From Verrucomicrobiia bacterium (GTDB lineage: Bacteria; Verrucomicrobiota; Verrucomicrobiia; Limisphaerales; UBA11358): 50,303 bases of DNA. The notes under the pieces were generated by a model that saw nothing but the letters and a program-made list of their open reading frames with translations, was not told the origin of the DNA and did not search any database. Positions 9,029-34,442 of this stretch are shown piece after piece. Both the position numbers and the translations under genes were made by a program. The stretch is taken from contig JANWKE010000098.1 in the NCBI GenBank assembly GCA_025451535.1, forward strand, positions 1 through 50,303, in the 5' to 3' direction. The stretch's first letter is position 1. Every line of letters begins with the position of its first letter.

Positions 9029-9038
9029 GAATAAAATT

Positions 9039-9278
9039 TCAGCCACCCGACACCGGCGGTATCAAGGCGACTTCATCGTCATTTGAAAACAGCACATCAG
9101 CCGCGGCGTATTCCCAATTACGGGAAAGTCGTACCTGGGCGCGATGCGCAGACAGCCTGGGAAATTTTTCAAGCAACAATGTCCAAAGCTGCCCGGCATT
9201 AAGCGGCGACGGCAGTGCGAGTTCAACCGAATCGCAACCGCTAGCGTCCTTGAGTTGGGCGAAAAAAAGCACACGCAT
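9039..9278 (-). CDS. moaD: Molybdopterin synthase sulfur-carrier subunit MoaD
   Basis: The protein has 79 residues with a ubiquitin-like fold pattern: MRVLFFAQLKDASGCDSVEL at the start and DEVALIPPVSGG at the end. The C-terminal Gly-Gly is the residue pair thiocarboxylated in MoaD and inserted into the MoaE active site. The gene lies directly before moaE-moeA; its stop is 11 bp before the ATG used there, or overlaps the alternative GTG. Partner and pathway follow from the operon. Confidence 0.95.
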   Translation of the reverse strand: MRVLFFAQLKDASGCDSVELALPSPLNAGQLWTLLLEKFPRLSAHRAQVRLSRNWEYAAADVLFSNDDEVALIPPVSGG

Positions 9279-14743: not shown

Positions 14744-15640
14744 CTAATCGTAACTGTTCATCCAAGCACGAAACCTGCTCAGTGCCTGGGTCGGATCGTA
14801 AATCTTGCTCCAAGGCATTTGCCAAAGCTCCTTCAAGCCCACGAACCGGACCGAACCATCCACGAACGTCATGTCAACCGGCTTCCTGCTGGCGTGTCTG
14901 GGAATGCAAAAAGACGGCAGCTCGTCGAAAGCCCCACAATCACCTTCGTTCGCTGGCGCTGCATCGAGTGTGGTATTGTAGCTGCCGCCAGCGTGCGGGT
15001 TACTTCCCTGCCACACACAATCAGCAAATAATGGTGTCCTCGATGCGTACCGGCCAGCTCCTGTCATTGTCCGCCAATATCCTGGCGAATCAGCCACCGC
15101 AGCGGCACCAGCAGCAGTCAATTCCGCATCCGGGGGATTGGCCAGCCAGCCGTTAAATCCATAACTGCCGGCCATGCCGGCACGACCCCACGGAGTCGCG
15201 ACAGGATACCCGTTTGTGCCCATGATGCCCCAGGCCAGAAAAGTGGTGCCGGAAGTAACCCAAAAATTCGCAAGTGAACTGCGCATCTTTGTTGCCGCTG
15301 GACAGTAGCATAGCTTTCCGCCCATGCCGGTCCCGCTAACGGATCCAGGCATGTATGCCTGCAACGCAAACATCCACATCCCATTCGGATCATACCAACC
15401 CAACGGCAGACTGTCATGGTGGTCGCCGGCGTACATCGGAAAGGCCACCCCCCACTGCCTCAGATTTGATACGCATACAATCCGCTGCGCCCTGATCTTC
15501 GCGGCGGACAGGGCCGGCAGCAATAACGCCGCCAAAATCGCGATGATGGCAATCACCACCAGCAATTCAATCAGCGTGAAGCCCGATGGCAACGGTGAGT
15601 TGTTATTTGACTTCGATGGTTTCAAATTGGGCATCGGCAT
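14744..15640 (-). CDS. Pseudopilin-like secreted protein
   Basis: The product has 298 residues from the ATG at 15640; a GTG at 15700 gives a longer leader, and an ATG at 15634 is also possible. The prepilin motif [29 protein letters not shown] is near-perfect, with cleavage expected after the Gly. The C-terminal block [22 protein letters not shown] resembles the H-X9-DG motif but has eleven residues between His and Asp-Gly. The gene heads a same-strand group with the lectin-like protein and GH53 and has a type-2 upstream element, so it is probably expressed with galactan degradation. Its exact role is unknown; Verrucomicrobia encode many such proteins. Confidence 0.85.
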
Positions 15641-15700
15641 CGGTTGTAAATGAATTATCCGTATTGCGCATTCGATATACGGCTTTTTACGTGATTTCAC

Positions 15701-16071
15701 TTAAACAATGAACAGGACAATTTAGCATTATTTGTTTCACCGTCGAGATAACAACGTGCGCATTGTTTCACCTGCTGCATGAGTAATTACGGTAAAAGTA
15801 GTTGCTTTTTCCCGCTTTGCCTAGCCTCACAAATGTAGAGTATTAGGGCCGGCGCAGCCTGACCTGACAGGCGGCATAATCACTTTTGAATCAACGGCTA
15901 CTTTCGATGCCCTTTCTGTCTCGCTGGAATGGATTTGAGCGCAGTTTGGATAGGTAACGGGCAGATATTTGTTTTAACCATGATGGAACCACGGTCTTAC
16001 GACCTTCTGGTTGAGCCAGTCCGTGCGGTGAATTCCGGCAGGGAAAACCGATGAACTTAACGACCAGAACG
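15701..16071. other. Intergenic region upstream of the pseudopilin group
   Basis: The stretch contains the type-2 element at 15814-15842 and otherwise no recognisable gene. A 90-codon minus frame overlaps the end of the PEP-CTERM gene and has no family features. Confidence 0.4.
15814..15842 (-). promoter_or_regulatory. Type-2 upstream element (copy J)
   Basis: On the minus strand the core reads TACATTTGTGAGGCTAG then GCAAA, identical over about 28 bp to the copy at 16947-16975 and nearly identical to the plus-strand copy at 27288-27316. It lies about 174 bp upstream of the pseudopilin ATG, in the same orientation relative to the downstream gene as the other two copies. A regulator site is inferred. 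Confidence 0.7.
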
Positions 16072-16103
16072 AAAATGCCGCTTGTTGGCACAAGCGGCAT
16101 TTT
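16072..16103. terminator. Terminator after the PEP-CTERM gene
   Basis: A perfect 14-bp inverted repeat, AAAATGCCGCTTGT (16072-16085) and ACAAGCGGCATTTT (16090-16103), with a four-base loop lies just downstream of the PEP-CTERM gene on the minus strand. A/T runs flank both sides, so it fits a rho-independent terminator. Confidence 0.85.
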
Positions 16104-16131
16104 GTCATGTTCAGGATCCGCAAGATCAAAA

Positions 16132-16893
16132 CTAACGGGCAGAGAATACCCTTCGGCGCACAATCAAAAGCAGAGCGCCCAAACCGAGGAATGCGCTGGC
16201 AACCGGCTCGGGCACCACGGTGTACATATACGCCGCCGTGCCGAACTTCGAGGCTGCCCCTCCTGCGTCTGTAGCAGCGTCATAAGCTGAAGTGCCATTG
16301 TAAGGAGTGTAGGCATTATCTGTCTCCGCAGGATAACTGCTGAGCAATGAACCATAGGCGGATTGACCGATACCATTAGGGTATGAAGACACAACGTCGA
16401 AGTAGAAACTGCCACCGACGCTCAACCCGAGGCTGCTTAACGGCCTTGTGAAGGTGAGGAAATTAAATCCAGTGCCGCCGGAATCATAGGCGGCTCCCGA
16501 ACCCATCGTCCAAACACCACCACTATAGTACGCTGAATTGGCGCCGGTATTATAAGTGGCAGCGAAGGCGTTTTCACCAGTGCCGATGCCCAGACTGGGA
16601 CCCCACCCGTTCAGGGCTCCCGCAGAGTTAAAGAGCGCAGCGCTTCCACTGGCCCCCTGGCCAACATATTGCAGCAGGACATAATATTGAACGTATGCGC
16701 TCTGCGCCGCGCTCGTATTGATGGTAAAGGTGATGCTGCTGGCAGTGTTGTTGATGACCACGCTGCTGATGCCCTCTCCATTTCCGCCACCGCCATTGGC
16801 GGTACCGGGGCCTGCATAAGTGGCGGCCTTCGCGGGCATAATGGCCATCGCCAGCGCAGCAATGACCGGAGTCACAAAAGAAACAGTTTTCAT
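16132..16893 (-). CDS. PEP-CTERM sorting domain protein
   Basis: The 253-residue protein has a signal peptide (MKTVSFVTPVIAALAMAIMPAKA) and a Gly/Ser/Ala-rich beta-type body without known catalytic motif. The C-terminus VVPEPVASAFLGLGALLLIVRRRVFSAR is a PEP-CTERM tripartite signal: the PEP motif, a hydrophobic helix and an Arg-rich tail. Such proteins are processed by an exosortase and exported to the surface or matrix. It sits between the galactan clusters with a type-2 element about 55 bp upstream and a strong terminator downstream, so it is a single-gene unit. Its ligand is unknown. Confidence 0.87.
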   Translation of the reverse strand: MKTVSFVTPVIAALAMAIMPAKAATYAGPGTANGGGGNGEGISSVVINNTASSITFTINTSAAQSAYVQYYVLLQYVGQGASGSAALFNSAGALNGWGPSLGIGTGENAFAATYNTGANSAYYSGGVWTMGSGAAYDSGGTGFNFLTFTRPLSSLGLSVGGSFYFDVVSSYPNGIGQSAYGSLLSSYPAETDNAYTPYNGTSAYDAATDAGGAASKFGTAAYMYTVVPEPVASAFLGLGALLLIVRRRVFSAR

Positions 16894-16946
16894 AGATTAT
16901 TGATTTACGGGTTTGCTAACTGCATGAATTATGCTTGGAATCCTTG

Positions 16947-16975
16947 ATTTTGCCTAGCCTCACAAATGTAGAGTA
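16947..16975 (-). promoter_or_regulatory. Type-2 upstream element (copy I)
   Basis: This near-exact copy of the element at 15814-15842 includes the same flanking GAGTATT on the plus strand. It lies about 54 bp upstream of the PEP-CTERM gene and after the response-regulator stop. A TTTG and a CAAA near the ends give an imperfect dyad. Confidence 0.7.
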
Positions 16976-17021
16976 TTCCAAGCCCTCCACGATCTTCAGC
17001 AAATGTATAACTCCTTCTGAA

Positions 17022-17669
17022 TTAACGACTATCCTGCTTGTCCTGCTTGCTTGAGCGGAACTTGAGTGCTGCTTCGGTGCGGGAACGGACATGCAGTTTA
17101 TTATACACGTGCCGGAGATGCCAGCGCACCGTGCCGTCAGTCAACCCCAGTCGGTCAGCGATTTGCTTGTTAGGGAACCCGTTGGCGAGCAATTCCAAAA
17201 TCTCCCGCTCGCGAGCCGTAAGGTCTTCCACGTCCATGGCGGTTGCCAGCGGTTCTTGAAACGAAGCGATCACCTTGCGCGCGATTTCGCGCGACATCGG
17301 AGCACCCCCCTGCGGGACTTCACGGATGGCGGCGATGAGTTCTTCGGGCGCACAACGTTTTAACAGGTAACCGCAAGCCCCCATGCGCAACGCTTTGAAG
17401 ATCCGCTCAGTGTCTTCATAGACCGTCACCATAATAATATGGACAGAGGGCAACAGCTGTTTCAATTGAGCGAGACAGTCAATTCCCGACATGTTGGGCA
17501 ACTGAATGTCCATCAACACGATTTCAGGCTCATGTTTGGGAATTACCTTCAACGCTTCTTCGGCCGTCGCACAGGCGCAGACACAGCGGCATTCCGGGTC
17601 CGCGTGGATGAATTCCATGAGACTCTCACGAATTACTTTGTTGTCTTCAACAATGGCAATCTTGGTCAT
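17022..17669 (-). CDS. NarL/FixJ-family response regulator
   Basis: The protein has 215 residues. The N-terminal receiver shows IVEDNKVIRESL, the phosphoacceptor Asp in IVLMDIQLPNMSG, Thr/Val in IIMVTVYED and Lys in GYLLKRCAPEEL. The C-terminal LuxR-type helix-turn-helix shows LTAREREILELLANGFPNKQIADRLGLTDGTVRWHLRHVYNKLHVRSRTEAALK. Its ATG overlaps the kinase stop as ATGA, so the two form a cognate pair translated together. The pair ends a galactan-degradation operon, so regulation of galactanase or galactosidase genes is likely (inference). Confidence 0.95.
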   Translation of the reverse strand: MTKIAIVEDNKVIRESLMEFIHADPECRCVCACATAEEALKVIPKHEPEIVLMDIQLPNMSGIDCLAQLKQLLPSVHIIMVTVYEDTERIFKALRMGACGYLLKRCAPEELIAAIREVPQGGAPMSREIARKVIASFQEPLATAMDVEDLTAREREILELLANGFPNKQIADRLGLTDGTVRWHLRHVYNKLHVRSRTEAALKFRSSKQDKQDSR

Positions 17670-20600
17670 GAACTTAAAGGCATATAAAACCGTACCGTCG
17701 TGCCGTGACCGGCTTCGCTGGCGATTTCAAATCTTCCGCCCAATTTTTCGATGCGCGCCCGCATGTTGGCGACACCGTCCATTTCCTCGGTGTGAATTCC
17801 CGATGAGAATCCACGCCCGTTGTCGGCGACGATCAACCGCACCTGGCCCTGTTCAGCCTGGATGCTCAAACGGACTTCCGACGCGTCGGCGTGACGCACC
17901 ACGTTGGTCAATGCTTCCTTGAACGCCAGAAACAACTGATGCCGGTGCCGTGAATCCACCGTGGGATCAGGCGTCCCAGGCATGCCTTCCAGGCGCCAGG
18001 CGATGTTGGCCAGGCCCAGAAAACGATCCGCGTAAAGACAAAAATAACTGACCAGCGACGCAAGGGAATCGTGTTTCGGATTCATCGCCCAGACAATTTC
18101 ATCCAGCGCGGTGACCATTTCGCGGGCTTTTTCGCGCGCTTGTTCCAGGTAATGGTTCCGTTTTTCGTCGGGGGCAGTCGCCGATCTCGCCCGGGCGGCC
18201 AGCATGCTGATTTCCGTAATGCCGGAACCGAGTTCGTCGTGCAAGTCCTGGGCAATCCGGGCGCGTTCCTGCTCCATGGCCCGCTGGTGCTCGACATTCT
18301 GGCGTTGCCGGATTTGAGCTTCGAGTTCCCGGGTGCGTTGTTCCACCTGCCGATGCAATTGAGTGATCCATAACGCGGCCGCCGCCAGCACGCACACCAG
18401 CACACCCATCATGACCAGTAATCGTTCCAGTGTCCACCACGGTGGCCGGGCCAATACTTTGATATCCGCCGGTGAATTGAGCAGTAGTTCGAAGGAGGTA
18501 ATATCCTGTCCCACCGCCCGGTTCCCGCCTTCACCCAGATAAACCCCGACCAGCTTCAAGCGGGTGCCCGGCGCCAGCGAATGCACGGAGTCATTCCTGG
18601 TATTGAGCCGGGCCATAAAGGTGCGGACGCCGCTCCGCATTTCCAGAGCCTGGCCGGCCGGCGTTTCCCTCACACTCACGAGCAATCCGTCCACGGTGAC
18701 GAGCGTCGAGTCATACTCCGCATGGATTAAATTGTCCGGTTGCAGCTTACGGGCCTTTGGCAAGGTGGCGTGACCGGTTTTGCGCGCCACAGCTTCATGC
18801 AGGAGCGGCGAAGCACCACTCAATCCTGGAAAGCCGACCACTTCCACCTGATCACCGGCTTCCAGCCCTGGAACCGGTTTTTTCAAAACAAATTGCACCC
18901 CATATTTGTCATCCATCAGATAATACTCGGGAGCTTGCGCATAAATAATCTGTCCGGAAATTTTCACCCGTTGGAATACGCCGGCTTGCGGATTAAACTG
19001 CAACAGCTCGGCAACGGTCTTCAGCGGAAGCGAAAACAAATCTGTCGGGGCCGGCTGATCTACCGAAATTTCCGCGCCATAAACCCGGATTTCGCCCACT
19101 TTTACCTGATGCGTCATATAATCCCACGATGCCAGCAAACAACCCCGCACCCGGACAACGGCATCTTCGTAGCGTTCCAAATCCGCCGTTTCAATCCCGA
19201 TCACCCTTAACTCCAATTTGAGTTGGCCATCACCCGTAAACAGCGTAACGCTATTGGAACTGACCGAAGTGACGATGCCTTGCAACTCGACATACTGGGC
19301 ATCCAGGCTTCCATTCATCAACTGCTCCCAGGCCGGGTGGACCGGCTGCGGCAAACGCCCCGCGCCCAGATTCCCGACATGATCTGCGTCAACAATGGGA
19401 GCAAACAGGCTCGGATCGGTCTTGCCTTTGACCTCCAGATACTCACCGATCTTCGGCGGCACCGACCGGCTCTCGGAAGAATCAACCACATACAAACCCC
19501 GCGTCGCATCTTGAATGGTGAAGGCCTGGCGTTCCGGCAGGACACAGGTCACCACACCCTGAATTTTCACAGGATAGCCCCGTTGTGCCTCCTCCCGGTT
19601 CAATTGATGAACTTCACTGGCGGTGGTCAACACCGGCAGTGTTCCCAGGCCGGTGTCCTGGATATTTGTCGCCGGATTGGCTGCCCCGATGATTTTGATT
19701 TCGCGTTTGTCTGAAACCAACAGGATACCGCCAACTTTTTCTCCCTCGGCATCGTAAACACTTTGACAAACCCCGGTAACCCGGACCCGGCTATTCATAA
19801 GTTGGTCCGCGGACAATCCTGAGCCATCCGCCACCTTGAGTTTCAGGCGGCCGGTTTCAGAGGTTAATTCCAAATCCCATCCGTCCTTCCGTTCGCCGAC
19901 AAATGTGACCTTTCCTTCAACCTCGACCCATTGATAACCGCCGCTCTCGCTTAAGGTCTGCCCGATTATCATCTGGTGCGGTTTCGGCAATTCAATTTGT
20001 CCAATCGTTTCCAGCCGGAGCGGCCGTTCACTGATGAATAATTGACTGCCATCATCCGAGGTAAGGTAAAAGGTATAGAGACCGGCACGCGGAATTTGAA
20101 GATAGCCTGTAAACTGCAACCCGACGTGTTCGTTGCGGCTCATGACACCCAGATCAAAGTTGGACACGTTCCCGGTTTTGAGAGGAGTCAGCTCTGCGAA
20201 GTCAGGCAAGACTTCGCCGTCAGCTTCGTAACAGGCATAATCTAATCCGTTTACAAAATTCGTTGCGCCATTGGCATCCGTTTGAACACGAAAGAGCGCT
20301 GAATCGGGAATCCTTTGACGGAGCAAAGCGGGCCCTTGATAGTCTGCTTCCAATCCGTATCTCTCAGCGCCATTAAACCAATCAACGCGAAGGGGATGGC
20401 GACCTGCCTGAAGATAGACCGCCCCGGATTTTTCAATCATGGTATGGATGCCGTCGTCGTCCACCACCGGCCCCATGACACCGAGTTGAACACCCGCGTC
20501 GCGCCGGGTAATTGTGCTCTCGCCCTCCAATCGCACCCGCTGGCCCGGCTGGAGGGATTGGCCGTGCAACTCCATTTCCAACTCGTCCGTCCCGGACGCA

Positions 20601-20884
20601 TCCTGTAAAACAAATTTTCCCCGCGCCGGGTCCGCCCACAAAACATCTCCTTCCAAACGGATAAGATAGCTGGCATTCGGGTTCTGGGAGCCGAACCGGG
20701 AAAGTTGCACAATGTTTGTCGCTTCGGGCGAGACTGGCTTTGCCGGAACCTCATCTGCCCAAACGGTGGCGGGCAGAGTCAATCCGGCACCGAAAATCAA
20801 ACCGCAGCAGATCGTGACGTTCCAACGTGACGTCCCAAACACTCTGCGCGCAGGTGTGGAGAAGGGCTTCAAGAATTCAATCAT
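17666..20884 (-). CDS. Hybrid-length sensor histidine kinase with PA14-type periplasmic domain
   Basis: The protein has 1072 residues. An N-terminal hydrophobic segment (about 20-43) leads to a very large periplasmic part. There, LPDFAELTPLKTG and GLYTFYLTSDDGSQLFI (about 226-284) mark a PA14 domain, preceded by a partial PA14-like end (HPLRVDWFNGAERYGLEADYQGP). Repeated OB-fold-like segments such as VEVEGKVTFVGE, VKIQGVVTCVLPERQAFTIQDATRG and VKISGQIIYAQAPEYYLMDD follow. A membrane helix lies at about 818-840. The cytoplasmic part has a HisKA_3 box ERARIAQDLHDELG with His882 and an HATPase domain with DNGRGF and GTTVRFYMPL. PA14 domains often bind carbohydrates. Its ATG overlaps the GH2 stop, linking sensing to galactan hydrolysis. 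Confidence 0.93.
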   Translation of the reverse strand: MIEFLKPFSTPARRVFGTSRWNVTICCGLIFGAGLTLPATVWADEVPAKPVSPEATNIVQLSRFGSQNPNASYLIRLEGDVLWADPARGKFVLQDASGTDELEMELHGQSLQPGQRVRLEGESTITRRDAGVQLGVMGPVVDDDGIHTMIEKSGAVYLQAGRHPLRVDWFNGAERYGLEADYQGPALLRQRIPDSALFRVQTDANGATNFVNGLDYACYEADGEVLPDFAELTPLKTGNVSNFDLGVMSRNEHVGLQFTGYLQIPRAGLYTFYLTSDDGSQLFISERPLRLETIGQIELPKPHQMIIGQTLSESGGYQWVEVEGKVTFVGERKDGWDLELTSETGRLKLKVADGSGLSADQLMNSRVRVTGVCQSVYDAEGEKVGGILLVSDKREIKIIGAANPATNIQDTGLGTLPVLTTASEVHQLNREEAQRGYPVKIQGVVTCVLPERQAFTIQDATRGLYVVDSSESRSVPPKIGEYLEVKGKTDPSLFAPIVDADHVGNLGAGRLPQPVHPAWEQLMNGSLDAQYVELQGIVTSVSSNSVTLFTGDGQLKLELRVIGIETADLERYEDAVVRVRGCLLASWDYMTHQVKVGEIRVYGAEISVDQPAPTDLFSLPLKTVAELLQFNPQAGVFQRVKISGQIIYAQAPEYYLMDDKYGVQFVLKKPVPGLEAGDQVEVVGFPGLSGASPLLHEAVARKTGHATLPKARKLQPDNLIHAEYDSTLVTVDGLLVSVRETPAGQALEMRSGVRTFMARLNTRNDSVHSLAPGTRLKLVGVYLGEGGNRAVGQDITSFELLLNSPADIKVLARPPWWTLERLLVMMGVLVCVLAAAALWITQLHRQVEQRTRELEAQIRQRQNVEHQRAMEQERARIAQDLHDELGSGITEISMLAARARSATAPDEKRNHYLEQAREKAREMVTALDEIVWAMNPKHDSLASLVSYFCLYADRFLGLANIAWRLEGMPGTPDPTVDSRHRHQLFLAFKEALTNVVRHADASEVRLSIQAEQGQVRLIVADNGRGFSSGIHTEEMDGVANMRARIEKLGGRFEIASEAGHGTTVRFYMPLSS

Positions 20885-23490
20885 GGTAGGACCGGGACTG
20901 CGTTTGTCGAGACTCCAACCTCCAATTCAACCGTGGCTCCCTTGAGCCCCGCCGCCGAGGCGTCGAGGCGAACCGGACCGGCTTCGCGGCCGGCTTGCAC
21001 GATGGCAAGACAACGTCCATGGAAGGCAAACCTTCGCTTCGCCTTGTAATCTTCATGGCTGAGGGGATTGCCGTTGTCCACGCCGATCATGGAAGCTGCG
21101 CCTTGCAGATCAAACGACACCAGGTTGGTGGCTTCCGGTACAGGGTAGCCCTGGTCATCAATAATTTTAACCGTCAGGCAGGCGACATCGCGTCCATTGG
21201 CATTCAAGTTGGTACAATCCGTGGTCATGACGATGGCGGCCGGGTCACCGGCGGTATGGACCTCCTCCTCGCAAACTTTTTGGCCGTATTTGTAGCCGAG
21301 CGCCTTGAGGGTTCCAGGCTCGTAAGGAACATCCCACGTTAGATGCACGTCGGCGGTAGTACCGGTGGGCTGTTGTGGTCGGGCGTAAATGGCCCAACCC
21401 CCGGCATTGCCTTGACGCGGAAATTCCAGCGACTTGATGCCAAAACTTTTTCCGTTCAGAAAAAGTTCCACCGTGTCGCAACTGGTGTAGCAAACCACCG
21501 GAATCACCTGGCCTTCATGCCCTTTCCAATCCCAATGCGGGAACAGGTGCAGCATCAAATTGGTCGTCCACTGGCTTTGATAGAAATAGTAGTTGTCCTT
21601 GGGAAACCCGCAGGTGTCGAGCATGCCGCTGGGCGCCAGCTTGCCGGGCCAACGCGATTCGCCAAGATAATCAATCCCCGTCCATCCGAAATCACCAATG
21701 ACGTAATCATGGACTTTAACAAACTTCCAAAGTTCCTCCGCACGGATCATCGACATCGTATACGCCGGTGGTCTTTTTATCGCGACTCCGGCGGGAGCAC
21801 CACCTGGGCCTCCAAATCCGCCGAAAACGCCGATGCCGCCATTGGTGAGTGAGTAATCGCCGCGCGCACCCACCACCACGCTTTCCGTTCCGATAAACTT
21901 GCGTTGCGGGAAAGCGTGTCGATCGTCGTCATACATGGTCTCTCGCCGGGTTCCCCAGCGGTCCACGTAATTGTAGCCCACGATGTCCAGAAGATTCAGG
22001 AACGCCGGTGTCGCACTCTTTGTATCCGTGTAAACATTGTCGCAGGCGGCGGTAACGGGACGCGTCGGGTCTTCCTGATGGCAAGTCTCGACGAGCGGAC
22101 GGAGAATGTCAGCGCCGTTGGTGACGGTCTGTTCGGGAATTTCGTTGCCGACGCTCCAAATAACGATGCCAGGATGGTTGCGGTCGCGGCGCAGCATATC
22201 GGTCAGATCACGTTGGGACCATTCCTTGAAATAGTCTGCGTAGCCGTGGCGCACTTGTGCCTTCGATATTGTCCATTCGTCAAACGCTTCGTCCATGACG
22301 AGGAAACCCATGCGGTTGCAGAGATCGAGCATTTCCGGCGCGGGCGGATTGTGACTCATGCGAATCGCATTGCAGCCCATGTCTTTTAATTCTTTCAAGC
22401 GCCGCTCCCAAATCCCAATGGGCACCGCCGCCCCGACCGCACCGCCATCCTGGTGAAGACACATGCCCTGCATTTTGACGTGCTGGCCGTTCAGGAGAAA
22501 ACCCGTGTTGACATCGTAGTTAATCTCGCGAATGCCAAAGGCGGTTTCGTAATCATCCATGACGTTGTTCGCGGTCTTCACCAGCGTGCGAACGCAGTAA
22601 AGGTTTGGCGCGTCGAGCGACCATAAACGCGGTTGTGCAACCTCAGCGCTCTGGTCAAATTCATGGGTCGTTCCCGCAGCGATCATTTTCTTCGATTCCG
22701 CCGTCGCGACGACGGTGCCTTCGGCGGTGACAACCTGGCTGACCAACGTGATTTCACGCCTCTTCGACAATTCGTTTTGAACCTGCGTCCGGATACGCAC
22801 CGTTGCCGAGTTGGTTGAAACGGTCGGGGTGGTCACATAAGTGCCCCAATGCGCGACATGGACCGGTTCGCAGATCGTGACCCACACATGCCGATAGATG
22901 CCGGACCCGGAATACCAACGGCTGTTGGGCTGGCGGGAGTTGTCCACGCGTACCGCGAGAACGTTGGCAGCTCCAAGTTTCAAACACGGCGTGAGGTCAT
23001 ATTCAAAACCGATGTAACCGGACGGCCGGTGTCCGAGGTGCTGGCCGTTGATCCAGACATCGCTGTTCATATAGACCCCGTCGAATTCCACGAACACCTG
23101 CTTCCCGCGCCAGATTTCCGGCGCGGTAAAGGTGCGGCGATACCAACCGATTCCAGTTGGCAGGGAACCGCCGCTACCGCCGGTCGGATCGGACGGTGTG
23201 TAGGGGCCTTCAATACTCCAATCGTGTGGGAGGTTTACAGCGCGCCAGGCCGAGTCATCGAAATCAGATTTGTCAGCACCAGGTGGATCGCCCTTGATGA
23301 ACTTCCAGTCGAAGTCCGCGCCAAGCCGTTGACGAGGTTGATCGGCGGCCCGCAGCGGCGGCGGGTTGCCAAAAAGAACGGCCAGGAGACCGGCCCCGAC
23401 GGCAAGAAATGAAATCGCCCGACCCAGCAGGAGATTCGGATGGTAAGTTTGATTTAACGCCGTTTGGTTGTTCCCGCATGAGCATTCCAT
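20881..23490 (-). CDS. GH2 family beta-galactosidase-type glycoside hydrolase
   Basis: The protein has 869 residues with an N-terminal hydrophobic export segment (about 24-48). The sugar-binding and immunoglobulin-like domains show VNLPHDWSIEGPY, GIGWYRRTF, VFVEFDGVYMNSDVWINGQHLG and SRWYSGSGIYRHVW. The barrel shows KMQGMCLHQDGGAVG, NAIRMSHNPPAPEMLDLCN, WSVGNEIPEQ with acid/base Glu450 and FIGTESVVVGARGDYS with probable nucleophile Glu536. C-terminal beta domains (DUF4982-like and following) complete it. GH2 enzymes release terminal beta-linked sugars; galactose from galactan oligosaccharides is likely from the GH53 neighbour. The stop overlaps the sensor-kinase start as ATGA, an unusual direct coupling of hydrolase and sensor. 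Confidence 0.93.
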   Translation of the reverse strand: MECSCGNNQTALNQTYHPNLLLGRAISFLAVGAGLLAVLFGNPPPLRAADQPRQRLGADFDWKFIKGDPPGADKSDFDDSAWRAVNLPHDWSIEGPYTPSDPTGGSGGSLPTGIGWYRRTFTAPEIWRGKQVFVEFDGVYMNSDVWINGQHLGHRPSGYIGFEYDLTPCLKLGAANVLAVRVDNSRQPNSRWYSGSGIYRHVWVTICEPVHVAHWGTYVTTPTVSTNSATVRIRTQVQNELSKRREITLVSQVVTAEGTVVATAESKKMIAAGTTHEFDQSAEVAQPRLWSLDAPNLYCVRTLVKTANNVMDDYETAFGIREINYDVNTGFLLNGQHVKMQGMCLHQDGGAVGAAVPIGIWERRLKELKDMGCNAIRMSHNPPAPEMLDLCNRMGFLVMDEAFDEWTISKAQVRHGYADYFKEWSQRDLTDMLRRDRNHPGIVIWSVGNEIPEQTVTNGADILRPLVETCHQEDPTRPVTAACDNVYTDTKSATPAFLNLLDIVGYNYVDRWGTRRETMYDDDRHAFPQRKFIGTESVVVGARGDYSLTNGGIGVFGGFGGPGGAPAGVAIKRPPAYTMSMIRAEELWKFVKVHDYVIGDFGWTGIDYLGESRWPGKLAPSGMLDTCGFPKDNYYFYQSQWTTNLMLHLFPHWDWKGHEGQVIPVVCYTSCDTVELFLNGKSFGIKSLEFPRQGNAGGWAIYARPQQPTGTTADVHLTWDVPYEPGTLKALGYKYGQKVCEEEVHTAGDPAAIVMTTDCTNLNANGRDVACLTVKIIDDQGYPVPEATNLVSFDLQGAASMIGVDNGNPLSHEDYKAKRRFAFHGRCLAIVQAGREAGPVRLDASAAGLKGATVELEVGVSTNAVPVLP

Positions 23491-23533
23491 ACGATTTTGT
23501 TCCGATTTCAGGTCACGATAGACCGGAATAGTT

Positions 23534-25807
23534 TTACCGCTCGACCGTCAACTCATACCAGGGTGTAACGATCCGGCCGATGGCAATCTTCCAACCCGCG
23601 CCGGTTTTTTGGGCGATGATGGGATCACCAACAGGCTGGCCCGAACCGTCCAAAGCTCTGGCCGAAACCGCGTTTGCCTGGGCGAGGTCGCGAAGCGTAA
23701 TGGTGCCGGTCACAGGCTCAATCACCGTTGGCGTCCCGCCCCAATCGGCCGGGAGAGACTTTTCGGCATTCCAAGTCATGCCGGTATTTTCGACACGCGA
23801 GCCGGTGACCAGGAGCATCCGGCTTGACGTTGAGATCGGTTTGGCCTCGAGGGAACTGAGAATAATCGCGCAAAAAGTGTTTGAGACATCCGCGGAAAGA
23901 TTGCTGACACTTTTGCCGTTGGCTCTGACGAAACCAACCAGCGCCTGCGAGCGTGGACTGTCAATGGTTACCAGACCCTCGTCAGCCGGGCTGGTGTACC
24001 AGGCCAATTGGCCGGTGTCGCTCCGGTAGGGACTGGCAAGATCGGCCGTGACCCGAGTTGTCGGTTGGGCGTCCAGCGATTGAATGCGCGAAGCGTGCAG
24101 CAGCGGCAGGGATAGTGGAAAGCCCGGTGTAAAGTAAGGCCGGTGCGTCCCCGCCAGGCGTCTGCTGTCCCAGACTTCTTCCGGCGTATAGGAACGCGCG
24201 ACGGTCTTTCGAGCCGGCTCGATGTCGCCGCGGAGAAACATCAATGCCCCGGCCGCCATTTCCGGCATCTTGACGGGATCGTGCGACATATCGAACGGAT
24301 CGGTGAGCACGGGCTGCCAATCGGCATTTCGTTTCGGCTCAAATGTATACCACATGATGCCACTCCAGCCTTGAAAGTCGCCATAAGCCGCCAGAATGGG
24401 AATTCCTTCGCAATCGAATTGATTGGGCCACGGATTGTTTACCTCGCTGACCGTGTACGGTTTGCCGGCGAGGGCCGTTCGTGAAAGTTCGACCACGGTC
24501 GAATTGAACGGTTCATTTACCATGGGATTATGCCGGAAAGGCGGAACGCTCGGATGCCGCCAGTAATCGTGGCCGTCCATGATATCCAGTTGTTGCGCGT
24601 CAGCCTCCAGCGGGTAGCCGCTTCCCGAATGACTGTGGTCGGCGGTGGCGATCAGCGCACATTTCACACCTAAGCCGGCCCTTAAACAGGAACTCATTTC
24701 CTTGAAGAAGCCGGACTCCAATTCAGAGTAGAACCTGCATTCAGTATAATACCGGTCCGGGGCCGCGCTCTGCACAGCCGGGCCGGTGAGGCGGGGAATG
24801 GGTTGATCGGGGCCGACCCCGGCCTCTTTGCGGAACTCGGCCAGTTTTTCGGTGGATATGCTTTTGAGCAACCACCCGTTGAAGAGCCCGGTCAGCTCAT
24901 CATCATAGGCCTTGTTTCCCCTCCAGCCGATGCCAATGGCATCCTCATTCACGATTTCGACGATGGCGACGCCCGGGTCATCCACGTAGGCCTTTTTGGT
25001 ATACGGGTTCACATGAGTCAGCAATTGTCTGGCGTAGTCTTTTTCAAGTTCAATCAGGCGCCTGTCGAAAAGCAGCGGGCCTTTCCCTTCCCGTAAGGCG
25101 GGGACATTGTCTCCCGGTTGGAATGCCCGGCCGACATTAAGATTGAAATCAATGTAGATGCCGCGCTTCATCAACTCGGAGAGGAAAAAATCTTCGTTGT
25201 CGAGTTGTGCCGGATCGAAGTGCTGACTGTCATTGCGGGTGCCGTCGATCAATCCCCGCGGCGCCGCCAGATCGAGAAATTGCAGGCGCACGATATTCAC
25301 GCCGGCGCGCGACAGCGCATCCGCCCAGACGGGCGCATCTTCTTTGGAGGGAACCTCGGTTGAGCCGCGGCTCCACTCGGTAAGGTTGAATCCCCAAAAA
25401 CGAATCGGCCGGCCGTTTCCTTTGACCAGCTGGTCACCTCTCGCGCGGACAAAGCCGTCTTTCCCCGCCGGCGCATCCAGCAGGAAAGACAAATCAATGA
25501 TCGAGTGGGTGGTGTGGCGATGATCTATAACAAACGGCTTAAGCCCCATTCCCGGCGTCTCGAATGGCGTGGTCGGACCGAAGAACCGCCTGAAAAAATC
25601 AGGCCGCCAACGGGGAGGAGCCTTTACGTTATTTGTGCCCGTCCCAACAGCTGGTGTTTGTCCACCGGCTGGCGGCGCACTGTTCTGGGCAAGGACCGGT
25701 GAGGCAGTTAAAAGTGCGAACTGGAGAATGCATCCGGTGGTTTGAATTTTCGTCTGCCACGCCGGAGCCGGCCGGTGGAAGAGAATTCGCCCTAAAACTC
25801 CGCACAT
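23534..25807 (-). CDS. Secreted clan GH-A glycoside hydrolase, family not assigned
   Basis: The protein has 757 residues with an N-terminal export signal ending in SPVLAQ. The (beta/alpha)8-type features are IRFWGFNLTEWSRGS, NIVRLQFLD, VAIVEIVNEDAIGIGW with probable acid/base Glu288 and KPYTVSEVNNPWPNQFDCEG with probable nucleophile Glu455. Between them, DIMDGHDYWRHPSVPPF is also typical of GH-A barrels. A C-terminal beta-rich region (about 560-757) follows. It resembles secreted GH5-like or exo-galactanase-type enzymes, but I cannot place it in a numbered family by eye. Gene order (GH53, this, GH2) suggests an activity on galactan or arabinogalactan oligosaccharides. It is 43 bp upstream of the GH2 gene. 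Confidence 0.85.
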   Translation of the reverse strand: MCGVLGRILFHRPAPAWQTKIQTTGCILQFALLTASPVLAQNSAPPAGGQTPAVGTGTNNVKAPPRWRPDFFRRFFGPTTPFETPGMGLKPFVIDHRHTTHSIIDLSFLLDAPAGKDGFVRARGDQLVKGNGRPIRFWGFNLTEWSRGSTEVPSKEDAPVWADALSRAGVNIVRLQFLDLAAPRGLIDGTRNDSQHFDPAQLDNEDFFLSELMKRGIYIDFNLNVGRAFQPGDNVPALREGKGPLLFDRRLIELEKDYARQLLTHVNPYTKKAYVDDPGVAIVEIVNEDAIGIGWRGNKAYDDELTGLFNGWLLKSISTEKLAEFRKEAGVGPDQPIPRLTGPAVQSAAPDRYYTECRFYSELESGFFKEMSSCLRAGLGVKCALIATADHSHSGSGYPLEADAQQLDIMDGHDYWRHPSVPPFRHNPMVNEPFNSTVVELSRTALAGKPYTVSEVNNPWPNQFDCEGIPILAAYGDFQGWSGIMWYTFEPKRNADWQPVLTDPFDMSHDPVKMPEMAAGALMFLRGDIEPARKTVARSYTPEEVWDSRRLAGTHRPYFTPGFPLSLPLLHASRIQSLDAQPTTRVTADLASPYRSDTGQLAWYTSPADEGLVTIDSPRSQALVGFVRANGKSVSNLSADVSNTFCAIILSSLEAKPISTSSRMLLVTGSRVENTGMTWNAEKSLPADWGGTPTVIEPVTGTITLRDLAQANAVSARALDGSGQPVGDPIIAQKTGAGWKIAIGRIVTPWYELTVER

Positions 25808-25870
25808 AATTCAGGTTCAAGTTCTCCGCCGGGACGGTTCGATCCATCGTCGGAGAATGTGTGTTTGCTT

Positions 25871-27121
25871 TTAATGTCGTTCACCCGTTTCCGCATGCGC
25901 TGTTTGCATCGCGGGTTGCAGGCCTGATACGTTCATGGCGGGAAGGGGGTTGCCCCTGGCATCGAAAAGCGCGTTGGCATCCGGTCCACTCCAACGATTG
26001 GTGGAACCGGGAATGAAAGTGGCCTCGGGGTGCCAGTAGTTTACGCCGATGCCTCGCCCTTCGGGCGCTTGCTTGACCACTCGGATGAGGTCAGCCAGGA
26101 ACCGTTCCTGCCCCTCAGGCGTCATGGGCCAGACCATATTTCTGGCCGCGGCCGGTGAGGGATGAACATCCCGGGAGGGGTATGCGGTTTCGACGATCAT
26201 CACGTCCTTGTGGTATCGTTCAATCGTATGGCGCAGGTTGTCGCGGACATTTCCCAGGGTGCCATGCCAGTTCGGGTAATAACTCTGGCCTATGACATCA
26301 TAGTCAACCCCGGCCTGCGTAAGATGGTCAAAATACCATCTGGTGACAGGCCAGTCACCGCCGCAATCAATGTGAACAACGATTCGGACGTGGTCTGCAG
26401 GCGTCGTGGCTGAACGGACACCCTGGGCATCGGCTTTCAAAAGACGGATCAGATGATCCCATTGTCTGGCATCGTCGTAAGGTTCCGGTGGTTTGATTAC
26501 GGTCACGTCACCGCCAAACACCTTGACCGTGGAAAGCGGAACCTTCACCTGACCATCCGGCCATAGCATACCGCCAGTGATTTCGTTGCCGATCTGCACG
26601 AAATCCGGCGTGGCGCCGGCTGCTTTCAGTGTCCGGATCACGTGGGCGGTGTAGGTCTGCGTTTGTTTGACCAGCGCGTCAAAATCCAGGTTCGCCCAGG
26701 CGGCGGGCTTGTTTTGCTTCTGTGGATCGGCCCACCAGTCAGAATAATGAATATCGAGCATGAACGTCCCGCCGGCGTCCTTGATGCGTTTGGCCAGTTT
26801 TGTCGTGTATTCAAGCCCATTGACCCCATTGCGGGGATCAACCCAAATCCGCAAACGAAAACACGTCCAGCCATTTTTCATGAAAATGGCCAGCGCGTCA
26901 CCGGGCTTGTCGCCGTCCATGTAAACACCCCCACGCCGATCAACCTCTGAGAGGGTGGAAATATCCGCGCCTAAATAAAACGGTGAAGGGTTGACCTTGG
27001 GCGCCGCTTGAGGAGCGGAGCCGCTCGCCGGTCCGGCGGTCGGGAATATAATAATTACGGCGATCATCAGGATGCAGAATTGAACGCTGCCCCGGAACAA
27101 AACTGTGGATGATATTTTCAT
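25871..27121 (-). CDS. GH53 arabinogalactan endo-beta-1,4-galactanase
   Basis: The protein has 416 residues with an N-terminal hydrophobic signal. GH53 blocks are FYLGADISTLSEVDRRGGVY, CFRLRIWVDPRNG, FMLDIHYSDWWADP (about 120-133), FVQIGNEITGGMLWPDG with acid/base Glu180, and VMIVETAYPSRD with nucleophile Glu311. It cuts beta-1,4-galactan chains internally. It lacks the C-terminal beta module found on the other GH53, so the two probably differ in location. AAGGA precedes the ATG closely. It is the first gene of the minus-strand operon running to the response regulator and is divergent from the GH2 gene at 27412. Confidence 0.94.
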   Translation of the reverse strand: MKISSTVLFRGSVQFCILMIAVIIIFPTAGPASGSAPQAAPKVNPSPFYLGADISTLSEVDRRGGVYMDGDKPGDALAIFMKNGWTCFRLRIWVDPRNGVNGLEYTTKLAKRIKDAGGTFMLDIHYSDWWADPQKQNKPAAWANLDFDALVKQTQTYTAHVIRTLKAAGATPDFVQIGNEITGGMLWPDGQVKVPLSTVKVFGGDVTVIKPPEPYDDARQWDHLIRLLKADAQGVRSATTPADHVRIVVHIDCGGDWPVTRWYFDHLTQAGVDYDVIGQSYYPNWHGTLGNVRDNLRHTIERYHKDVMIVETAYPSRDVHPSPAAARNMVWPMTPEGQERFLADLIRVVKQAPEGRGIGVNYWHPEATFIPGSTNRWSGPDANALFDARGNPLPAMNVSGLQPAMQTAHAETGERH

Positions 27122-27287
27122 CTTCCTTGATATTATCGGGTTGTTGTATTTTTTGGCAGCGCTGGTGAATGTGTGAAGTCGCCGATAACGTCACTTCGAC
27201 GCAACCATGCCGGAAAAACAGTGCACATGAACCGATGTTACACCCGCAAATTAAGTTGTGGCATCAGGAAATTAACCAAAGTGCCAA

Positions 27288-27316
27288 AACCATACATTTG
27301 TGAGGCTATGCAAAAC
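27288..27316 (+). promoter_or_regulatory. Type-2 upstream element (copy H)
   Basis: The core ATACATTTGTGAGGCTA followed by TGCAAAAC matches the two minus-strand type-2 copies over about 22 bp with one or two differences. It lies 96 bp before the GH2 start in the divergent region between the GH53 operon and GH2, so it could serve one or both promoters. Confidence 0.65.
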
Positions 27317-27411
27317 CCTTCTAAAAGGTTGCCATTTAATCAATGGCCACCATGAAGTTGTCGAAACGGAATCCTTCCCTTCGGAATTAACAACTTGGAA
27401 AGACGATACTT

Positions 27412-29988
27412 ATGAAAGGAACAACTCACCTCAGTTTTTCTCAACCTGGCTGGAGGCATCTGGTTGTCGTTATCCTCTTTACTCTAAATATGTTCACCAC
27501 TGCTGCTCCCGCAACCGGTCTCGTTCGGGAACGCCTTTTATTCGACTCCGGCTGGCGTTTTACCAGGGGCGATCCGCCCGGAACCGGTGACGAACTCAGT
27601 TATACCAACATCAAACCCTGGGTGATGGCCACCGGTAATGAGTTTGTGGTGGACGGCAACCCCGTGACGCGCCCGCCGGGCAACCTCGGTGAACAGGTCG
27701 CCTACACCCAGACCGGATATGATGATAGCGGCTGGCGCCAGCTGAATCTTCCCCATGACTGGGGCATTGAAGGGCCATTCAAGCAGGAAGCACCCGGCGC
27801 GACCGGCAAACTGCCCTGGGAAGGCATCGGCTGGTATCGCAAGCACTTCACTTTACCTGCCTCCGGGAACGGTGGTCGACTTTATCTGGCCGTGGATGGC
27901 GCCATGTCTTACGCCAATGTCTGGCTTAACGGCCAATACGTCGGCGGTTGGCCCTACGGATATTCTTCCTGGGAACTTGACCTGACGCCATATGTCAAGG
28001 CCGGCGCGGACAATGTTCTCGCCATCCGTCTGGACAATCCGCCGGATTCCTCGCGCTGGTATCCCGGCGGCGGCATTTACCGCAACGTCTGGCTGGTGAA
28101 GACCGGACCCGTGCATGTGGAACATTGGGGCACGTATGTCACCACGCCAGAAATCAATTCTTCCACTGCCACGACGAGCATACAGGTTACTGTGGTGAAC
28201 GATGCTGATGCGGTCGCGGCCGTGTCAGTGAAAAACGATATTTACGAACTCAAGGCCGACGGTACCCGGGGTGAGTCCGTTGTTTCAACCGCCACCGACG
28301 CGATAAAAGTTGCGCCGCACAATCGCCAAACGATTCAAGCGCAGGCAACGGTCAAAAACCCGCTGCTTTGGAGCCTGGCGAAGCCCCAGCGCTATGTGGT
28401 GGTCACTTCCATTGAACAGGACGGCAAATTGTTGGATCACGACGAGACTCCGTTTGGCATCCGCACCATCAAGTTCGATCCCAACCGGGGCTTCTTTCTG
28501 AACGGTGAACCTGTCCGTCTCAACGGCGTTTGCGACCATGCCGACCTGGGCGCGCTCGGCACCGCCATCAATGACCGGGCGCTGGAACGTCAAATCCAAA
28601 TCCTGCAGGAGATGGGCTGCAATGCGATCCGAACCAGCCATAACCCGCCGGCCCCGGAGTTGCTCGATTTGTGCGACCGCCTGGGGATATTGGTGATGGA
28701 TGAGTCATTCGATTGCTGGCAGCGCGGCAAGCGGCCAAACGATTATCACCTGCTGTTCAATGATTGGCATGAAAAAGACTGGCGCGCGGAACTGCGTCGC
28801 GACCGGAATCATCCCAGCATCATCCTCTGGAGCATCGGTAATGAGGTGCCCGACCAGGGAACACCGGCCGGGCCACGGATTGCGGCGGGGCTGACCCGTA
28901 TTGCGCACGAGGAAGATCCGACGCGCCCGACCACCGCTGCGTGCGACCATCCTACGTCCGGCTTCGATGGCTTCCAGACGAACCTTGATGTCTTTGGCTA
29001 CAACTACAAACCTTTCCTGTACGCCAAAGTGCATGCGGCCAATCCCGGTTTGCCGATCTTCGGCAGTGAAACCGCCTCCTGCATCAGCTCACGCGGTGAA
29101 TACTTTTTTCCCGTCTCTACCAACAAAAACGACGGCAAGTCAGGTTTCCAAATGAGTTCCTACGACCTTTCCGCACCGTACTGGGCGACGATCCCGGACA
29201 CCGAATTTAAAGGCCAGGACGAAAATCCCTGCGTGGCCGGCGAGTTCGTATGGACGGGCTTTGATTACCTCGGCGAACCGACACCTTACGATGCCCATAA
29301 CGATCCTTCGCGCAGTTCTTATTTCGGGATCGTTGACCTGGCCGGTCTCAAAAAAGACCGTTTTTACCTGTATCAGGCGCGCTGGCGACCCGACCTGCCC
29401 ATGGCGCACCTTGTTCCCCAATGCTGGAACTGGCCGGACCGCGTCGGCCAGGTTACCCCCGTATTTGTTTATACTTCCGGTGATGCAGCCGAACTGTTCC
29501 TGAACGGCAAGTCGCTCGGGCTGAAGAAAAAAGAAGAATACCAATATCGCCTGTGTTGGAATGACGTGAAATACGCACCGGGCGAGCTCAAGGCGGTTGC
29601 TTACAAAAACGGCAGACCGTGGGCATCCGACATGGTGCAGACCACCGGCCCGGCGGCGAAACTCGCCTTGCAACCGGATCGCAAAAGAATTCACGCTGAC
29701 GGCAAGGATTTATCCTTCATCACCTTGACGGTTGAAGACAAGAATAACTTGATGGTATCCCGGGCGGACAACACGATTCATTTCGAAATTTCCGGGCCGG
29801 GTGAAATTGTGGCTACCGATAACGGTGACCCGACGGATTTGGTCTCGTTTCCCTCCCGCGAGCGCAAGGCATTCAACGGCCTTTGCCTCGCCATCGTTCG
29901 CTCCAAAGCCGGACAGACCGGAACCATAAAACTTACAGCGAACTCAGGTGGTTTGAAAACGGCCAGTGTTTCCATCCATGCCCAATGA
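27412..29988 (+). CDS. GH2 family beta-galactosidase-type glycoside hydrolase
   Basis: The protein has 858 residues with an export segment (about 15-32). It shares the GH2 layout with the paralogue at 20881-23490: LNLPHDWGIEGPF, GIGWYRKHF, VDGAMSYANVWLNGQYVGG, SRWYPGGGIYRNVW, then RLNGVCDHADLGALG, NAIRTSHNPPAPELLDLCD, WSIGNEVPDQ with Glu478 and PIFGSETASCISSRGEYF with Glu553. C-terminal beta domains follow. A loop of about 35 residues near 60-95 is absent from the paralogue. GGAAAG precedes the ATG. It probably removes terminal galactose from pectic oligosaccharides; galactosidase rather than another beta-glycosidase activity is inferred from context. Confidence 0.93.
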   Translation: MKGTTHLSFSQPGWRHLVVVILFTLNMFTTAAPATGLVRERLLFDSGWRFTRGDPPGTGDELSYTNIKPWVMATGNEFVVDGNPVTRPPGNLGEQVAYTQTGYDDSGWRQLNLPHDWGIEGPFKQEAPGATGKLPWEGIGWYRKHFTLPASGNGGRLYLAVDGAMSYANVWLNGQYVGGWPYGYSSWELDLTPYVKAGADNVLAIRLDNPPDSSRWYPGGGIYRNVWLVKTGPVHVEHWGTYVTTPEINSSTATTSIQVTVVNDADAVAAVSVKNDIYELKADGTRGESVVSTATDAIKVAPHNRQTIQAQATVKNPLLWSLAKPQRYVVVTSIEQDGKLLDHDETPFGIRTIKFDPNRGFFLNGEPVRLNGVCDHADLGALGTAINDRALERQIQILQEMGCNAIRTSHNPPAPELLDLCDRLGILVMDESFDCWQRGKRPNDYHLLFNDWHEKDWRAELRRDRNHPSIILWSIGNEVPDQGTPAGPRIAAGLTRIAHEEDPTRPTTAACDHPTSGFDGFQTNLDVFGYNYKPFLYAKVHAANPGLPIFGSETASCISSRGEYFFPVSTNKNDGKSGFQMSSYDLSAPYWATIPDTEFKGQDENPCVAGEFVWTGFDYLGEPTPYDAHNDPSRSSYFGIVDLAGLKKDRFYLYQARWRPDLPMAHLVPQCWNWPDRVGQVTPVFVYTSGDAAELFLNGKSLGLKKKEEYQYRLCWNDVKYAPGELKAVAYKNGRPWASDMVQTTGPAAKLALQPDRKRIHADGKDLSFITLTVEDKNNLMVSRADNTIHFEISGPGEIVATDNGDPTDLVSFPSRERKAFNGLCLAIVRSKAGQTGTIKLTANSGGLKTASVSIHAQ

Positions 29989-30282: not shown

Positions 30283-31605
30283 ATGACAGAACTATTGATA
30301 CTGGAGAAATTTTCGTTTGGTGTCGGAGATCGTTTTGCCCATCAAGCCAGGGCACAACTCCGTGCGTTCATGTTGGCAGCCCAGCAAGGGGCGGACGTGA
30401 GCCCTGTCTGGAACAAATCCAATCGCGAGCACGTCATTGTTGGTTCGGAGCCGGCGAGCACCCGGGCGGCGGTGGAGGCAGCCGTGAAGGAATTGCACTG
30501 GCAAAAGGCCTATCATGTGGACGCCGACCATATCCAGCTTGGAACGGTGGACCGGTTCATTCCGCATTCGGATTTTTACACAATTGATGTGGCGGATTGG
30601 ATTGGGAAACCGGCCGATGCAAAGGCGGTGGAAACGTTCCTCGAATCTCACCCCGAGCTGGTGGGGCAGATCTCGATTCCCCGGATCGAATGGCCGTTTC
30701 AAACCACGCTGGCGGAAGTGAAACGCGTGGTAGGCAAGTATTTGCTGGCGGTACAGGAAGCCGGAAAAATCTATCGTCACATTGCCCAGGCAAAAGGCGA
30801 GCGGAAATTCATTACCGAGGTTTCAATGGACGAAACCGACAGTCCCCAAACTCCGCCGGAGCTGTTGATCATTCTGGCCGCCATCGCCGACGAGAAAATT
30901 CCGATTCAAACCATCGCGCCAAAGTTCACCGGACGTTTCAACAAAGGCGTGGATTATGTGGGAGACATTGCCCAGTTTGAAAAGGAATTCAACGAAGACC
31001 TTGCCGTTATTGATTTTGCCGTGAATCAGTACGGTCTGCCGGCCACGCTTAAACTGAGCGTGCATTCCGGCAGCGATAAATTTTCCATTTACACGCCGAT
31101 GCGCCGGGCATTGGCGCGGTTTGGCTCAGGCTTGCACATCAAGACCGCGGGGACGAACTGGCTGGAGGAAGTGATTGGTCTGGCGGAAGCCGGTGGCGAC
31201 GGATTATCCCTGGCGAAAGAGATTTATGCCGGTGCCCTGGCACACGCTCAAGAGTTATGCGCGCCTTATGCCACCGTGATTGATATCGATTCCCAAAAAC
31301 TGCCTTCAGCCACAACGGTTAATGGCTGGAACGCAAAGCAATTCACCTCGGCGCTGCGCCACGACCAAAGCAATCCGGCGTTTAACCCCCATCTGCGGCA
31401 ATTGATTCACGTTGGCTACAAGATTGCCGCCAAAATGGGCAACCGTTATCTTGACGCCCTGGAAAGACACAAAGACTCGGTGGCCAAAAACGTCACCACC
31501 AATCTGTACGAACGTCACATGAAACCCTTGTTTGTTGGTTTGAGCAAAGTCGCTTCCCGTGAAGCGGCCGTACCGGCGCAGGAGACAACGGTGTCGTCGC
31601 TATGA
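30283..31605 (+). CDS. uxaE: Tagaturonate epimerase (UxaE family)
   Basis: The 440-residue cytoplasmic protein is recognised by FSFGVGDRFAHQARAQL near the N-terminus, VSPVWNKSNREHVIVGS, YHVDADHIQLGTVDRFI and FYTIDVADWIG. In this family the enzyme epimerises D-tagaturonate to D-fructuronate, giving galacturonate a route into the fructuronate/mannonate branch without UxaB. Later conserved parts include IAPKFTGRFNKGVDYVGD and LKLSVHSGSDKFSIY. The stop overlaps the uxaC start as ATGA, so both are co-translated. A type-1 element precedes it. The family assignment rests on recalled motifs, and substrate specificity is by family and context. Confidence 0.85.
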   Translation: MTELLILEKFSFGVGDRFAHQARAQLRAFMLAAQQGADVSPVWNKSNREHVIVGSEPASTRAAVEAAVKELHWQKAYHVDADHIQLGTVDRFIPHSDFYTIDVADWIGKPADAKAVETFLESHPELVGQISIPRIEWPFQTTLAEVKRVVGKYLLAVQEAGKIYRHIAQAKGERKFITEVSMDETDSPQTPPELLIILAAIADEKIPIQTIAPKFTGRFNKGVDYVGDIAQFEKEFNEDLAVIDFAVNQYGLPATLKLSVHSGSDKFSIYTPMRRALARFGSGLHIKTAGTNWLEEVIGLAEAGGDGLSLAKEIYAGALAHAQELCAPYATVIDIDSQKLPSATTVNGWNAKQFTSALRHDQSNPAFNPHLRQLIHVGYKIAAKMGNRYLDALERHKDSVAKNVTTNLYERHMKPLFVGLSKVASREAAVPAQETTVSSL

Positions 31606-34262: not shown

Positions 34263-34279
34263 GCTCAATCAGATTGAGC
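34263..34279. promoter_or_regulatory. Palindrome directly before the XylR-type start codon
   Basis: GCTCAATC, one base, then GATTGAGC forms a perfect 17-bp palindrome abutting the ATG of the regulator gene. It could be an autoregulatory operator or a translation-blocking hairpin. The direct-repeat type-1 element at 34414 lies further upstream in the divergent region. Confidence 0.5.
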
Positions 34280-34413
34280 CCAATACGCATCCTTTTCAAC
34301 CGATTTTTAGAAAAGTCTTATTGGATAAGACCTTTCCAGCTTGAGAAAATCCGGGGAACATGAATTTGTCCTCAAAAGCCAACATGAAAATATGGACCGT
34401 CGGGCGCAAGGGG

Positions 34414-34442
34414 TGCTCAATTTTCAAACAGGTTTGCAACAA
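34414..34442 (+). promoter_or_regulatory. Type-1 operator-like element (copy E)
   Basis: TGCT, CAATT, TTCAAA and then TGCAACAA at the 21-bp step. The surrounding 44 bp also match the region before the PEP-CTERM gene at 45588 (CTCAATTTTCA, GTTTGCAACAA, GGGGG, TGACA). It lies 172 bp before the lectin-like gene, in the region divergent from the XylR-type gene. Confidence 0.65.

Follow-up and report, generated by a model that had tools for sequence, protein, structure and literature searches.

A repeated element in a verrucomicrobial galactan gene cluster, predicted to be a promoter under the control of a NarL-type response regulator

The window analysed here, i.e., the whole stretch of 50,303 nucleotides to which all coordinates refer, carries galactan-degradation genes on both strands, followed by genes for the use of galacturonate. 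Three copies of a short intergenic element, referred to as A, B and C, are interspersed among the following genes:

10489-11817, minus strand: GH53 endo-galactanase a (GH53a)
11930-14653, minus strand: large secreted protein with Ig domains (called a lectin in an earlier note on this DNA, and below)
14744-15700, minus strand: pseudopilin-like protein, the first gene after copy A, with its true start probably near 15640-15653
16132-16893, minus strand: PEP-CTERM-like protein, after copy B
17022-17669, minus strand: NarL/FixJ-family response regulator, a predicted activator, with phospho-acceptor Asp54 and recognition helix DGTVRWHLRHVY at residues 178-189
17666-20884, minus strand: membrane histidine kinase with PA14, beta-rich repeats and a DesK-type HisKA_3/HATPase core, the cognate sensor
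20881-23490, minus strand: GH2a, in an operon with the kinase and regulator genes
25871-27121, minus strand: GH53 endo-galactanase b (GH53b), without a site of its own in the window
27412-29988, plus strand: GH2b, after copy C
30283-33086: uxaE and uxaC, with three GH28 genes further on

Outside this cluster, the window also encodes a 588-aa protein with fused MoaE and MoeA domains (7280-9046) and a Ser/Thr protein kinase whose gene (3240-5030) adjoins that of a sigma-70 region 2 protein. In addition, a near-perfect inverted repeat, GCTTTGTAGAAAAGAT, occurs at 38398-38415 and 38505-38522, 107 bp apart, within a stretch (37560-39591) that holds few convincing genes.

The genes for the regulator and the kinase overlap by 4 bp and lie between the element copies. 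The regulator joins a receiver domain (PF00072) to a LuxR/GerE helix-turn-helix domain (PF00196), retains Asp54, Thr82 and Lys104, and has NarL as its closest solved relative (E 6e-37); a domain search found no sigma-54 interaction domain in it. The kinase possesses PF07730 and PF02518, with a His882 that is invariant in 19 homologs, and the domains, the phospho-acceptor Asp and the conserved His are those of a NarL/FixJ regulator with an adjacent, cognate HisKA_3 kinase. A fold search with the kinase gave clear matches for the core only (DesK, Z about 17-18), the outer region being barely covered; DesR, the partner of DesK, is itself a NarL-type regulator. The outer part, consisting of PA14 and beta-rich repeats, was modelled with confidence that is fair locally and low overall (pTM 0.42), and the PA14 domain, together with the nature of the target genes, suggests a glycan as the kinase’s ligand.

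The core of the element is a 16-mer, TACATTTGTGAGGCTA, which has exactly three exact matches in the window, at 15822-15837 (minus strand), 16955-16970 (minus strand) and 27293-27308 (plus strand), each followed directly by KGCAAA. With up to three mismatches allowed, 0.21 matches are expected in the window, and three were reached in no shuffle. The earlier note had reported these places and strands, with every copy directed at the gene that follows it (copy A at the pseudopilin-lectin-GH53 group, copy B at the PEP-CTERM gene and copy C at GH2), and the exact search confirms this. The same note described two copies as identical over about 28 bp and more than 1 kb apart; copies A and B do in fact share 29 identical bases (AATACTCTACATTTGTGAGGCTAGGCAAA) at a separation of 1133 bp. 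It had also proposed a genome-wide motif scan, in which many further copies within genes or ahead of unrelated ones would have meant a dispersed repeat. In the whole 4.4 Mb genome, the three exact copies are the only ones, all inside one cluster, and the next-best matches (one with two mismatches and ten with three) bring the total within three mismatches to 14, as compared to 13 chance matches for a reversed control pattern. Since the exact copies number only three and the rest lie at chance level, the element is not a dispersed repeat. No copy lies upstream of any GH28 or uxa gene in the window, again as described earlier. Likewise, the operon running from GH53b through GH2a and the kinase to the regulator (27121-17022) is without a recognisable copy in the window (best PWM score below zero), so the element, described earlier as marking the galactan genes, marks most of them but not all. 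In two of the genomes searched, G046 and G039, GH53b does have its own site.

The unit is longer than the 22-28 bp originally described, measuring about 46 bp once the -10 box is counted, and its sequence is that of a complete, predicted activator-dependent promoter comprising an A-rich stretch, a 16-bp inverted repeat, a -35 hexamer and a -10 box. More precisely, an A-tract is followed by a 6-bp arm, 4 bp, a second 6-bp arm, C, TAGGCA, 16-17 bp and TANNNT, in which CYNNMC-ATTT-GKSARG is the consensus of the repeat, TAGGCA the fixed -35 hexamer and TANNNT the -10 box. The parts are placed in the window as follows:

15825-15840, minus strand: copy A, predicted operator CTCTAC-ATTT-GTGAGG, before the pseudopilin-lectin-GH53a group
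15818-15823, minus strand: copy A, -35 TAGGCA
15795-15800, minus strand: copy A, predicted -10 TACTTT, 17-bp spacer
16958-16973, minus strand: copy B, inverted repeat CTCTAC-ATTT-GTGAGG, before the PEP-CTERM gene
16951-16956, minus strand: copy B, -35 TAGGCA
16928-16933, minus strand: copy B, predicted -10 CATAAT, 17-bp spacer
27290-27305, plus strand: copy C, inverted repeat CCATAC-ATTT-GTGAGG, before GH2b
27307-27312, plus strand: copy C, -35 TATGCA
27330-27335, plus strand: copy C, weak predicted -10 TGCCAT, kept as GGTTGCCATT in three relatives (L046, L047 and L053)

An alignment of 44 sites (40 non-redundant, some accepted by eye) brought out features that were no part of the search pattern, namely the A-rich stretch, the complementarity of the left arm to the middle arm, and the -10 box. 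Among 42 sites chosen on the repeat plus a portion of the -35, without regard to the -10, TANNNT lies exactly 16 bp after the -35 in 20 and 17 bp after it in four more, versus an average of 0.47 at other offsets. A -10 box is thus found within the 16-18 bp typical of sigma-70, with only a weak match in copy C. Over distinct arm pairs, 90 of 114 positions are complementary between the two arms, relative to 63 +/- 4.6 with shuffled partners (0/20000 as high), and some of the arm differences are G-T pairs. A generic search for the repeat and box in regulator loci yielded 32 sites, as opposed to 1.1 per shuffle, where the shuffles preserved single-base composition only. Counting the innermost A-T pair, the repeat takes a 7-2-7 form with half-site CYNNMCA. 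Its centre falls near -43.5 when -12 to -7 is assigned to the -10 hexamer, and the -35 that abuts the repeat is a poor match to TTGACA. The distance from the element to the start codon is variable, from about 20 to 190 bp. A first reading of the element as a TTTG-N10-CAAA palindrome over the -35 was rejected, since the CTAGGCA half is unchanged while the regulator changes and must therefore be the -35 and not a half-site.

Other genera and families have the element too. A search for the 22-mer in 146 genomes of the genus and order gave 24 sites, spread over 12 genomes, where the reversed pattern gave 2, and nearly every one of these loci has orthologs of the kinase and regulator, in differing gene order. 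Downstream of the sites are genes for GH53, GH2, lectin, pseudopilin or PEP-CTERM proteins; some relatives have the element before PEP-CTERM or GH2 genes with no GH53 nearby. The relatives as a whole are labelled Limisphaerales or Verrucomicrobia bacteria and are mostly fragmentary metagenome assemblies. Among 320 genomes of the order, the element, with zero or one mismatch, is present in 10 of the 14 that have a close regulator ortholog (at least 73% identity) and in 1 of the 306 that do not (Fisher p = 4e-15). Two Limisphaera genomes (G096 and G133) have no recognisable site although their regulators are close (78-80%), and a further genome of the set, G058, has a near-perfect site before GH2 without a close regulator (best 50%), in a cluster cut by a contig end. 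Essentially no such sites were found at loci of distant NarL-type regulators (40-52% identity) or at Bacteroidetes loci. The scheme holds in further taxa, with one locus each in Opitutia (L169), Akkermansiaceae (L177), Haloferula (L184) and Luteolibacter (L185); cultured relatives with such modules are Luteolibacter pohnpeiensis KCTC 22041 and Haloferula sp. BvORR071 (loci L182-L184).

At the loci of regulator paralogs, the same promoter frame carries other repeats, with the -35 constant, and each repeat is accompanied by its own recognition helix. For example, DGTVRWHLRHVY occurs with GTGAGG (8/9), TGT/PGTVRWHLENIY with GTCAGG, TRTVRWHLENIY with GTCCGG, VAAVK[W/F]HLQHIY with GGCTAG (13/13), and V[ED]A[VI]RWHL[KR]H with GGGGAG; VAAVKWHLQHIY is the predicted helix counterpart of the GGCTAG repeat. 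A Mantel test of helix against repeat gave r 0.77 (0/5000), a value inflated by phylogeny because regulator and site share ancestry. Within single genomes, G046 has three kinase/regulator pairs and the host genome, G000, at least three (in the window and on contigs C84 and C130), each pair with its own repeat type. When the code was used as a prediction, most loci first scored as empty had the expected repeat on re-search, often 12-21 bp past the regulator’s stop codon and with a -10 box after it. The variable helix positions include the equivalents of the base-contacting NarL residues K188, V189 and K192. By our own alignment, they also include those of K180 and S184, base-contacting residues of RcsB (PMC5829831).

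It is reasonably likely that NarL-like regulators of one clade in Verrucomicrobiota make up several insulated sensor-regulator-operator modules per genome, wired to adjacent surface or carbohydrate genes, in which the promoter frame is constant, the repeat is interchangeable, and a few helix residues (178-180, 182, 183 and 186) specify the repeat. Members of the clade come chiefly from Limisphaerales; Opitutia, Akkermansiaceae, Luteolibacter and Haloferula supply one example each. Candidate CTAGCC-type operators outside the order were dismissed: they appeared in only 2 of 388 genomes, fewer than for the reversed control, and this repeat type therefore appears to be confined to the order. On contig C130 of the host genome (L116), sites of type CCCCAGTTTTTGGGGGCTAGGC near 13832, 17912 and 22520 form a three-site local regulon with its own pair, two of them lying 56-57 bp before the predicted starts of proteins without a Pfam match. 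On contig C84 (L115:9695-16403), a paralogous regulator is accompanied by a CCTGAC-type site before a 2019-aa Ig and pectinesterase protein, which suggests a parallel pectin-esterase module.

Similar arrangements have been described elsewhere. Activation of yeaR-yoaG by E. coli NarL proceeds from one 7-2-7 site, placed immediately before the -35, while ogt has two sites, one of which abuts the -35 at -44.5 (PMC7419079). The verrucomicrobial element shares with both a NarL/FixJ regulator and a 16-bp repeat of inverted 7-bp half-sites with a 2-bp gap, just upstream of a weak, adjoining -35, and its centre (about -43.5) is similar to that at ogt. It departs from them in its half-site (CYNNMCA, where NarL has TACYYMT, so that the NarL consensus heptamers are not found), in its sensor (PA14 and beta-rich repeats, relative to NarX), in its polysaccharide and surface targets, and in its fixed TAGGCA hexamer. 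Judged by sequence and by analogy, the repeat would work like a NarL site but is not one, and, given the same layout with another half-site, contact between the dimer and RNA polymerase at the weak -35 is the best-supported explanation. A second parallel is the upstream element of proteobacterial PEP-CTERM genes that co-occurs with the kinase/regulator pair PrsK/PrsR (Haft 2006, PMC1569441); that element is a sigma-54 site served by an NtrC-like regulator, whereas the present one has a sigma-70-like -35/-10 layout, a NarL-like regulator, and targets that include glycoside hydrolases as well as PEP-CTERM genes. No sigma-54 promoter or NtrC-type regulator was found here. The hybrid two-component systems of Bacteroides have an AraC-type output. 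As in those systems (PMC11253607), a locus-encoded membrane sensor would here turn on its own glycan-degrading cluster, though with two separate proteins, a NarL-type output and a DesK-type kinase.

Taken together, each copy is very likely a response-regulator-dependent promoter of the sigma-70 type, switched on through the kinase/NarL pair. In the proposed mechanism, the membrane kinase would sense an extracytoplasmic signal, probably a galactan fragment, and phosphorylate the regulator, a dimer of which would bind CYNNMC-ATTT-GKSARG next to the weak -35. The bound dimer would then recruit RNA polymerase, in activation rather than repression, thereby turning on the pseudopilin-lectin-GH53a group, the PEP-CTERM gene and GH2b. 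What the sequence itself shows is the repeat, the -35/-10 layout, the link with the regulator clade and a recognition helix that changes along with the repeat; these support the earlier note’s view of the element as a regulatory site, and co-occurrence and co-variation strongly favour its candidate, the PA14 kinase/NarL pair, which is very probably the regulator of the element.

Other explanations have been considered. An RNA hairpin in the 5' leader, with riboswitch-like or translational control, was weighed seriously, because the arms covary, with some differences being G-T pairs, and because the element precedes start codons in one orientation. The hairpin was rejected on account of the -10 box at a fixed distance downstream (20/42 sites), which places the repeat upstream of the transcription start; the wide range of start-codon distances and the tracking of the regulator’s recognition helix by the repeat type, not expected of an RNA structure, leave the hairpin extremely improbable. 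The 29 bp common to copies A and B might instead recall a dispersed repeat, the end of a mobile element or a recent duplication of intergenic DNA, but such an origin is refuted by the genome-wide scan (three copies only, each before a cluster gene) and has next to no chance given flanks that are unrelated outside the promoter and the same element in other genera and families.

Neighbourhood by itself is no proof of regulation, and G058 has a site without a close regulator, as could be expected if the operator belonged to another, unlinked regulator and the PA14 kinase/NarL pair were a mere neighbour. The co-occurrence across the order, the co-variation of site and helix across paralogs within one genome (three pairs in G046 and three in G000), and the lack of such sites at more distant NarL-type regulators make this highly improbable. 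Finally, the regulator could repress from the site, which does lie in the promoter region, and sequence by itself does not tell activation from repression. Repression is nevertheless quite unlikely, as the repeat is upstream of the -35 and not over it, the -35 and -10 are weak (TAGGCA, TANNNT) like those of activator-dependent promoters, and the position is that of NarL activation at yeaR and ogt (PMC7419079).

Separate control of the galactan and galacturonan genes, as the earlier note proposed, is plausible on indirect grounds: the element is missing from the GH28 and uxa genes, and the latter are adjoined by a different, PBP/AraC-type regulator (33117-34268) with a different element nearby. 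Against a full separation, uxaE starts 295 bp after GH2b on the same strand, and read-through is therefore possible; nor does the element go with galactan genes alone in those relatives where it stands before PEP-CTERM or GH2 genes far from any GH53. The different repeated element, CTCAATTTTCA...GTTTGCAACAAWAYGGGGG, lies at 34409-34450 (plus strand) by the PBP/AraC-type gene and at 45659-45700 (minus strand) upstream of a PEP-CTERM gene (44776-45588), and is possibly an operator of the galacturonate side. Another sequence, TTTGCAAAAAAGCMTGA, is found at 42097-42114 (plus strand) upstream of a GH28 gene (40679-42052) and at 47946-47963 (minus strand) between two divergent GH28 genes.

Almost nothing is known about how Verrucomicrobiota control the transcription of polysaccharide-degrading genes, and the literature searched shows no described operator. 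The galactan cluster now has a concrete predicted operator, promoter and regulator. The natural regulator-operator pairs that have changed jointly open the DNA-recognition code of NarL/FixJ regulators to direct tests, and, if a few helix residues do specify the repeat, the targets of many uncultured two-component systems would be readable from sequence.
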